From Candidatus Latescibacterota bacterium (lineage in GTDB: Bacteria; JAAXHH01; JACQVL01): a stretch of 18,607 nucleotides of DNA. The notes below the pieces were generated by a model that was not told the origin of the DNA, did not search any database, and saw nothing but the letters and a program-made list of their open reading frames with translations. The position numbers were made by a program, and so were the translations under genes. Location of the stretch: the NCBI GenBank assembly GCA_016209865.1, contig JACQVL010000212.1, positions 1 to 18,607 on the forward strand, given 5' to 3'. Each line of letters opens with the position of its first letter. Position 1 is the first letter of the stretch. Shown here piece by piece: positions 11,132-12,945 of this stretch.

Positions 11132-11178
11132 ATTTTTTGGAAAAAATCCTTGACAACTAAACACCAGTTTAGTATATT
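11132..11178 (+). promoter_or_regulatory. Strong sigma70 promoter with UP-element-like A/T tract
   Basis: TTGACA at 11150-11155 and TATATT at 11173-11178 are separated by exactly 17 bases. Directly upstream, A- and T-runs centred on a GG (11132-11147) resemble the UP element bound by the RNA polymerase alpha subunit. The start of transcription should be near 11185, about 53 bases ahead of the ankyrin gene ATG. Confidence 0.88.
11156..11173. promoter_or_regulatory. Perfect inverted repeat filling the promoter spacer (probable operator)
   Basis: ACTAAAC (11156-11162), ACCA, GTTTAGT (11167-11173): 7-bp perfect arms sit between the -35 and -10 boxes and touch the -10. A palindrome in this place is the classical site for a repressor that blocks RNA polymerase, such as many TetR or MarR types. 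No such regulator gene lies in this window. Confidence 0.7.
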
Positions 11179-11237
11179 CTACTCAACACACAGCGATCTT
11201 CACTCATAATTTTTTCATTCTGAGGGGAGGGGCGGGT

Positions 11238-11528
11238 ATGACGACGGCACAGGAGATCATCGCGACGGTGTCAACCGGGGATGTCACCAGCGTGAACACG
11301 TTGCTCGAGCGCGCGCCATTTCTGATCCACGCCCGAGACGGGGCGGGGCGAACCCCGCTGGCGGTGGCGGCCTGGTGTGGCCATACAGCGGTGGCGGAGC
11401 TCCTGCTCGCTCACGGTGCGGACGTGAATGCCCGGGACCGGTACGGGTGGACACCCCTGCGGGAGGCGGACTGCGGGGATCGGGCGGCGGTGGCCGACCT
11501 GCTGCGCCAGCATGGAGGGATGATATAA
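11238..11528 (+). CDS. Small ankyrin-repeat protein, 96 aa
   Basis: Two clear ankyrin repeats occupy residues 34-66 (DGAGRTPLAVAAWCGHT then ELLLAHGADVNAR) and 67-96 (DRYGWTPLREADCGD then DLLRQHGG). A degenerate capping repeat fills residues 1-33 (VSTGDVTSVNTLLERAP). Ankyrin units are protein-binding scaffolds; no catalytic part or signal peptide is seen, so it should be cytosolic. GGGAGGGG precedes the ATG. It is the first gene behind the strong palindrome-bearing promoter and is followed after 17 bases by the BNR propeller gene, and then by a MoaD/ThiS-like gene. Its binding partner is most likely encoded in the same operon (inference). Confidence 0.93.
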   Translation: MTTAQEIIATVSTGDVTSVNTLLERAPFLIHARDGAGRTPLAVAAWCGHTAVAELLLAHGADVNARDRYGWTPLREADCGDRAAVADLLRQHGGMI

Positions 11529-11545
11529 AGGAGGGAGGCACGTCT

Positions 11546-12688
11546 ATGCGGAACAAACCCACCACGGGGGCGGTCACGCTGCTGATCGGCACGCGCAAAG
11601 GGGGGTTCATCCTGCGGGGAGACCGCTCACACCGGACCTGGAAAGTCTCCGGACCGATCTTCCTGGGCAACATCGTACACCATCTGGTGCTCGACCCGCG
11701 TGATCGACGCACCCTGCTCATGGCGGCTCGCACCGGCCATCTGGGGCCGACGGTCTTCCGGTCGACCGATCGGGGACGAACATGGACAGAGGCGAGCCGT
11801 CCGCCCGCCTTTCCCAAGCCTGCGAATGGCCAGCCTGGGCTGATCGTCGATCACGTCTTCTGGCTCACGCCGGGACATGCGAGCGAGCCGAACGTCTGGT
11901 ACGCGGGCGCGTCACCGTCGGGGCTGTTCCGGTCGGAAGACGGCGGCGCGACCTGGGACGGGGTGGCCGGGTTTAACGAGCATCCGATGCGGGCTGCCTG
12001 GGTGGGGGACTACCCTCCACCAGACGGCGCAAAGCTCCATTCCATCCTCATCGACCCCCGCGACCCGAATCACCTGTACATCGGCCTCTCCGGCGGAGGG
12101 TTCTTCGAGAGCACGAACAAAGGGACGGACTGGACCCCGCTGAACACCGGATGCTTAGCGGACTTCATCCCGACGCCCGACCCGGAATACGGCCACGACC
12201 CGCATTGCGTGCGGCTCCATCCGCTCATGCCCGACCGCCTCTACCAGCAGAACCACTGCGGGATTTACCGGATCGACCGTCCGGAGGGCCGTTGGGTGCG
12301 GATCGGCAGCACGATGCCCAAGACGATCGGGGATATCGGGTTCCCCATCGTCCTGCATCCGCGCGACCCGGATACGGTGTGGGTGTTCCCGATGGATGCG
12401 ACCGAAGTCTGGCCGCGCGTTAGTCCAGGGGGCAAGCCGGCGGTGTACGTGACCCGCACCGCGGGGAAGACATGGAAACGCCAGGACAGGGGGCTTCCCC
12501 GAAATCAGGCGTGGTTCACCGTCAAACGCCAGGCGATGACGGTCGACGCGCACGAGCCAGTGGGGGTGTACTTCGGGACGACCAGCGGGGAGGTGTGGGG
12601 CAGTCGGAATGAGGGGGAAGCGTGGACGTGCCTGGTGAGCCATCTCCCTGAAATCTATGCCATCGAAGCGGCGGAGTGGCCGCGATGA
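11546..12688 (+). CDS. BNR/Asp-box beta-propeller protein (sialidase-like fold), 380 aa
   Basis: Five Asp-box motifs of the S-x-D-x-G-x-x-W type lie at 73-80 (STDRGRTW), 130-137 (SEDGGATW), 189-196 (STNKGTDW), 303-310 (TRTAGKTW) and 353-360 (SRNEGEAW), typical of a six- or seven-bladed propeller of the sialidase or VPS10/photosystem-stability-factor kind. Such proteins are often auto-labelled exo-alpha-sialidase, but I see no signal peptide and no sialidase arginine triad with FRIP motif, so enzyme activity is doubtful. The ATG is chosen because AAAGGAGGGAGG lies just upstream; an earlier in-frame GTG would overlap the ankyrin gene. Its TGA overlaps the next gene's ATG (ATGA), implying translational coupling to the MoaD-like protein. 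Confidence 0.88.
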   Translation: MRNKPTTGAVTLLIGTRKGGFILRGDRSHRTWKVSGPIFLGNIVHHLVLDPRDRRTLLMAARTGHLGPTVFRSTDRGRTWTEASRPPAFPKPANGQPGLIVDHVFWLTPGHASEPNVWYAGASPSGLFRSEDGGATWDGVAGFNEHPMRAAWVGDYPPPDGAKLHSILIDPRDPNHLYIGLSGGGFFESTNKGTDWTPLNTGCLADFIPTPDPEYGHDPHCVRLHPLMPDRLYQQNHCGIYRIDRPEGRWVRIGSTMPKTIGDIGFPIVLHPRDPDTVWVFPMDATEVWPRVSPGGKPAVYVTRTAGKTWKRQDRGLPRNQAWFTVKRQAMTVDAHEPVGVYFGTTSGEVWGSRNEGEAWTCLVSHLPEIYAIEAAEWPR

Positions 12689-12945
12689 CCGTCTACATTC
12701 CCTCCCCGTTGCGGTCGTATACCGGACAGCGCAGTGTGGTGGAGGCTGACGGAGCGACGCTGGACGCGGCCTTACGGGAACTCGACCAGTGCTATCCGGG
12801 CTTCCGGTTTCGCATCATCAGCGAACAGGACACGATCCGGGAGCATATCAACATATTCGTCAATCGAGCACCCGTGCAGCGCCTGGACGTCGCGCTCCAA
12901 CCCGGCGATACGATCCACATCATCTGCGCGATCAGCGGGGGGTAG
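12685..12945 (+). CDS. MoaD/ThiS-like ubiquitin-fold protein ending in Gly-Gly, 86 aa
   Basis: A beta-grasp protein of the sulphur-carrier family. It starts MTVYIPSPLRSYTGQ, has DGATLDAALRELDQCYPGF (strand-helix), NIFVNRAPVQRLD, and the strand QPGDTIHIICAISGG. The C-terminal Gly85-Gly86 is the site that is adenylated and thiocarboxylated in MoaD/ThiS, or ligated in ubiquitin-like systems. The ATG overlaps the BNR protein stop by ATGA; a GTG nine bases upstream is less likely. No MoaE, ThiF/MoeB-type activating enzyme or molybdopterin gene lies in the window, so its activator is unknown. The operon is followed by a GC-rich palindrome at 12951-12975. Confidence 0.9.
   Translation: MTVYIPSPLRSYTGQRSVVEADGATLDAALRELDQCYPGFRFRIISEQDTIREHINIFVNRAPVQRLDVALQPGDTIHIICAISGG

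Follow-up and report, generated by a model that had tools for sequence, protein, structure and literature searches.

What does a ubiquitin-fold protein ending in Gly-Gly do when it is encoded beside a beta-propeller and an ankyrin-repeat protein? The question is raised by three forward-strand genes in the window, by which we mean the whole 18,607-nucleotide stretch of DNA analysed. An initial annotation had suggested that the MoaD-like protein may act for the propeller as a sulphur carrier or protein tag, with the ankyrin protein as adaptor. Our findings point to an undescribed two-protein module consisting of the propeller (BNR) and the MoaD-like protein.

The operon and its products

The first gene of the transcript, ank (11238..11528), encodes a 96-aa ankyrin-repeat protein (Pfam Ank, E 2.7e-13). 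In the ORF map of the window it is separated by 17 bases (11529-11545) from BNR (11546..12688), which encodes a 380-aa Asp-box propeller and in turn overlaps the gene for the 86-aa MoaD-like protein (12685..12945) by the bases ATGA (12685-12688). The tight three-gene arrangement described in the initial annotation is thus borne out, as is its promoter: a sigma-70-type site, TTGACA-17-TATATT, lies at 11150..11178 with 11/12 matches; the search gave two promoter-like sites, where shuffled sequences averaged 0.5. The domain assignments also held, with ankyrin and ThiS domains recognised by Pfam and the propeller matched weakly by Pfam BNR/Asp-box models but strongly by a profile comparison of its family with PDB 3b7f (E about 1e-204 (7.6e-204)).

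An AlphaFold model of the propeller (pLDDT 80) aligns to 3b7f in VIA-align with Z 52.1 and an rmsd of 1.9 over 363 residues; the next fold matches are GH74 propellers at Z about 27, and sialidase matches of the profile are weak (E 0.003 or worse). On the profile match and the predicted seven-bladed fold, we place the protein in the Asp-box family of 3b7f, a Ralstonia eutropha propeller (YP_299179.1) that is reported to have seven blades and is entered with function 'not known' in the 2009 Asp-box paper (PMC2716378). The family is now annotated 'exo-alpha-sialidase', a name apparently taken from the fold alone.

The MoaD-like protein ends in ...AISGG, the Gly-Gly terminus that had been read from the sequence, and scores 45.5 bits against Pfam ThiS (PF02597, cut-off 22.5); together with its predicted beta-grasp fold, these features place it in the ThiS/MoaD family. 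Its structural model (pLDDT 94) comes closest to CysO (Z 17.1); Thermus MoaD-related proteins, SAMP1 (Z 12.8), Urm1 and MoaD follow. Narrower assignments fit less well. The protein scores 43.2 bits against the NCBIfam SAMP1 model NF041918, whose cut-off is 60. It does not qualify as the MoaD of a molybdopterin synthase, as the window has no MoaE and related loci adjoin BNR instead; MoaE was not found in the organism's own draft genome (83% complete) either. Nor does it qualify as a CysO, its neighbours being ank and BNR rather than a cysteine synthase (CysM) or JAB gene. The window contains no recognisable E1, MoaE or thiamine gene, in agreement with the initial annotation.

The same genome holds six ThiS-family genes. 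A CysO-like gene lies on contig C308 with Rrf2 and cysteine synthase, and ThiS lies on contig C337 between ThiO- and ThiG-like ORFs identified by eye; because these two are separate genes, the MoaD-like protein encoded in the window counts as an additional carrier. The genome's CysO-like protein (L028:7625-7930) runs ten residues beyond Gly-Gly (ATTTILDFGF), apparently into repeat-like sequence, so that trimming would be needed. A single rhodanese-ThiF E1, encoded downstream of a MoaA-like ORF, could activate the window's MoaD-like protein, and the lack of an E1 in the window is therefore not a problem. The genome's single JAB gene is beside an XdhC-like ORF (XdhC by eye).

Conservation of the propeller and MoaD-like pair

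A conserved neighbourhood of the two genes had been suggested as a check. A first search with the MoaD-like protein returned eight loci in Nitrospirae and Delta-, Beta- and Gammaproteobacteria; a BNR gene lies directly upstream in all eight, and these distant BNRs are 58-76% identical to that of the window. BNR-profile searches blind to MoaD then covered the window's phylum, Gammaproteobacteria (in the GTDB sense, Beta included), the group to which the Delta MAG belongs and Nitrospirota, and records from a plasmid collection were added, giving 111 homologues in total above a threshold of 180 bits. A same-strand MoaD-like gene adjoins BNR in 100 of the 111, following it in 82 cases and preceding it in 18, with a gap of at most 50 bases in 81 pairs. 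When the eight seed loci are left out, 92 of the 103 BNRs found through BNR alone are still paired. Besides the phylum of the window, paired loci occur in Nitrospirota, Pseudomonadota and Actinomycetota and in a single MAG assigned to Myxococcota. This outcome is the opposite of a local pairing whose MoaD-like homologues sit mostly beside MoaE, the result that had been named as counting against the proposal, and it strongly supports a functional link, of whatever kind, between the MoaD-like protein and the propeller it was proposed to serve.

The Gly-Gly terminus is exact in 97 of the 100 partners and followed by one further residue in two; the remaining partner, from Nonomuraea (L031), stops short of it. 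The residues just ahead of Gly-Gly are likewise conserved. The BNR tree comprises three large groups and smaller ones: clade I, which includes the window, has BNR first; clade II has MoaD first; and clade III has BNR first and partners with an AGG tail. Because the MoaD tree gives back the same three main clades, the pair has been inherited together. The clade III partners are highly diverged, and those missed by the initial MoaD profile, including the partners in 12 sister genomes, were recovered by eye and with an iterated profile (E near 1e-20). The pair is retained across loci while its remaining neighbours change, although VOC, YCII, TfoX_N and DUF1579 genes recur within phyla.

The 11 BNRs without an adjacent MoaD include alphaproteobacterial ones, one from Streptomyces, YqeC-linked ones, L027, and two (L118 and L146) that may be broken copies, as their scores, 519 and 507 bits respectively, fall below those of their clade, and the match in L146 has an internal stop. 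Across clades I-III, Lys18, Trp32, Trp152, His165, His220, Gln235, His237, Trp250, His271 and Arg328 are conserved in at least 90% of propellers, and no cysteine is conserved over all three clades. His165 and His220 begin the inner strand of their blades in the sequence register, so that register and conservation together suggest a central pocket. In the unpaired BNRs, His237 and His271 are less conserved. Lys18, His220, Gln235 and Arg328 are retained there, which argues that an adjacent carrier is not essential to the propeller.

In a P. aeruginosa plasmid record (L034), the two genes stand in the opposite order, close to VOC, YciI and a sigma factor. A literature search for PA1355/PA1356 as the possible P. 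aeruginosa pair gave no paper. A phage origin was rejected, as phages yielded no match.

The ankyrin gene and a probable LexA box

The conserved unit does not extend to the whole operon: BNR and the MoaD-like gene belong to it, whereas ank is a lineage-specific addition. The ankyrin gene is absent from all eight related loci of the first MoaD-like search, and ankyrin neighbours of the pair are confined to the window's phylum. There, the clade III pair of the 12 sister genomes borders on ankyrin genes of the opposite strand; ankyrin matches fall at two places in the window's own draft genome, one being the ank of the operon; and most of those in another genome, G006, lie within about 48 kb of the pair on both strands. 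A general role of the ankyrin protein as adaptor thus found no support, since in other phyla the pair has no ankyrin neighbour, and on the same ground we discarded the ankyrin protein as a general third component. The ankyrin link is phylum-specific and stands outside the general module. In G006 (C1:1431-1479 kb, L182-L185), a cluster of ankyrin-repeat genes begins at the BNR-MoaD pair and also contains VOC, DinB-, AHSA1- and sigma-factor-like ORFs.

The promoter spacer of the operon contains a perfect palindrome, ACTAAAC-ACCA-GTTTAGT (11156..11173). A search of the whole draft genome found four further sites at one mismatch, compared with one in a reversed control. These four sites precede recA (PF00154), a Rad52/Rad22-family gene, nrdR and a small SWIM-like ORF, and a B12-dependent ribonucleotide reductase is encoded near this nrdR. 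The layout ttg(a/c)-palindrome-atatt is common to the window, recA, Rad52 and nrdR sites, and in G015, a genome of the same order, the exact palindrome precedes an impB/mucB-type polymerase gene beside a BNR. Because the palindrome also occurs in the recA, Rad52-like and nrdR promoters, ACTAAAC-N4-GTTTAGT (window 11156-11173; L193-L196; L027:1279-1296) is probably the LexA box of this lineage, although no recognised lexA is among the five palindrome sites found in the draft genome. The operon shares this operator with recA and further repair genes of its genome, as expected of a member of the LexA/SOS regulon. Judging from the sequence, the three genes are probably co-transcribed in the window's genome from a promoter under LexA repression, and the operon appears to be induced by DNA damage.

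No BNR of another lineage was found to be preceded by the palindrome. As a candidate for a conserved SOS box elsewhere, the E. coli-type motif CTGT-N8-ACAG was sought ahead of every BNR locus; a single exact match, in L125, and scattered one-mismatch matches were judged to be at chance level, and this candidate was rejected. A literature search combining the palindrome half-site with LexA gave no clear relevant match.

Possible roles of the pair and its relation to known systems

The reading we prefer, albeit tentatively and with a little less than even confidence, is a two-protein module in which a dedicated, E1-activated sulphur carrier works with a cognate propeller and which, in the window's genome, is SOS-controlled together with ank. 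The MoaD-like protein would be a ubiquitin-like sulphur carrier on whose Gly-Gly end the general rhodanese-E1 would form first an acyl-adenylate and next a thiocarboxylate. Once loaded, it would dock on the propeller at a site formed by Lys18, Trp152, His165, His220, Gln235, His237, His271 and Arg328, where sulphur would be passed to a substrate or the loaded carrier would be held. The module and ank would be expressed from one transcript whose promoter is repressed by LexA. We favour this reading because of the near-constant pairing (100/111), the mirrored trees, the Gly-Gly tail, the presence in the genome of an E1 and of a carrier additional to CysO and ThiS, the CysO-like fold, the conserved polar residues of the propeller, and a JAB-bearing subgroup of loci. 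JAB proteins are usual companions of sulphur carriers, and in the CysM and BexX systems a Gly-Gly protein (CysO) hands sulphur to a partner enzyme. Against the sulphur-carrier module stand the unpaired BNRs, the Nonomuraea partner that lacks Gly-Gly, the lack of a cysteine common to the three clades, and the location of the E1 elsewhere in the genome. A more ambitious version, which we regard as doubtful, is a new type of DNA-damage-inducible ubiquitin-like system in which the carrier would have the Asp-box propeller as its dedicated acceptor enzyme or recognition factor, and in which the pair would work across several phyla with no evident SOS control there.

The main rivals of the sulphur-carrier reading are a protein modifier and a purely structural role. 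A modifier would be conjugated to lysines in the manner of SAMP or Urm1, with the propeller either as its chief target or as an adaptor for target choice. The exact Gly-Gly tail of the partners, the resemblance to SAMP1 by NCBIfam score (below the cut-off) and by fold, and the invariant Lys18 of the propellers are in keeping with this, but Lys18 is equally invariant in the unpaired BNRs, CysO is closer in fold than SAMP1, the operon has no dedicated E1 or E2, and JAB is beside the partner in one subgroup only; we consider conjugation unlikely. A non-covalent role has a parallel in TmoB, a subunit of toluene monooxygenase: the MoaD-like protein would belong to a propeller enzyme as its structural or regulatory subunit, its tail perhaps lying in the propeller channel. 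Near-obligate pairing, mirrored trees, conservation of the residues before Gly-Gly and the Nonomuraea partner without it would all suit such a subunit; retention of Gly-Gly in 99 of 100 partners is instead what a chemically activated end would be expected to show, and a purely structural role is thus conceivable rather than likely.

Two further explanations carry much less weight. The propeller, YqeC or XdhC, the MoaD-like protein and JAB might jointly complete the molybdenum site of molybdenum hydroxylases by chalcogen delivery, as could be read from the BNR-YqeC arrangements in L081-L083 and L167, the BNR-YqeC-MoaD-JAB arrangements in L086 and L088, and the JAB gene beside the XdhC-like ORF in the window's genome. 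This is improbable, since YqeC adjoins BNR in one small clade only, no molybdoenzyme was recognised beside the pair in the window or the loci read, and MoaE was not found in the 83% complete draft. Finally, the two genes could be chance or hitch-hiking neighbours that share no function, and the recurrence of VOC, YCII, TfoX_N and DUF1579 shows that regional synteny exists. However, with two to seven ThiS-family genes per genome, adjacency would be expected in far fewer than 1% of genomes, compared with 90% here, both gene orders occur, and the pair persists as other neighbours change. Chance pairing is contradicted by the 100/111 adjacency and the matching trees, and we regard this explanation as very improbable.

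Bacterial ubiquitin-like carriers serve a short list of partners, namely MoaE, ThiG, CysM, TtuA, BexX and siderophore enzymes, and a propeller kept with its carrier over very deep divergence would add a new class. The pair also gives a concrete handle on the 3b7f family, of which P. aeruginosa, Burkholderia, Cupriavidus and Nitrospirota have homologues, and the SOS operator hints independently at the conditions under which one lineage needs the module. Our literature search, with subscription papers outside its range, found no paper describing the BNR-MoaD pair, nor one containing both 'MoaD' and 'BNR', and a 2006 survey of prokaryotic ubiquitin-like beta-grasp neighbourhoods does not mention propellers (PMC1779556).

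Among known propellers, 3b7f belongs to the same family as the window's BNR (66% identity over the model), and the consulted part of the Asp-box paper describes it solely as a putative glycosyl hydrolase, with no carrier protein mentioned there (PMC2716378). GH74 xyloglucanases, Ycf48/HCF136 and sialidases share the Asp-box propeller fold but only about 20% identity and weak sequence matches, and BNR aligns to one of the two propellers in GH74 enzymes. On the carrier side, MoaD-MoaE and ThiS-ThiG draw on the same Pfam family as the window's MoaD-like protein, which has neither MoaE nor ThiG as a neighbour; separate genes encode those carriers. SAMP1 and Urm1 are alike in their beta-grasp fold, their Gly-Gly end and the presence of one general E1 in the genome, whereas the MoaD-like protein falls below the SAMP1 cut-off and has a fixed propeller neighbour. 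The closest parallels are CysO-CysM-Mec of Mycobacterium tuberculosis (3dwg) and CysO-BexX of Amycolatopsis (4n6e), to whose CysO the MoaD-like protein is similar in fold (Z 17) at about 35% identity; as in the window's pair, a Gly-Gly tail is combined with a dedicated partner gene. Several CysO-like proteins in this comparison carry residues beyond Gly-Gly, whereas the BNR partners end exactly there, and the genome's separate CysO, unlike the window's MoaD-like protein, lies beside a cysteine synthase. In the CysO systems the partner is a PLP enzyme or a thiosugar synthase; in the pair described here it is a propeller.
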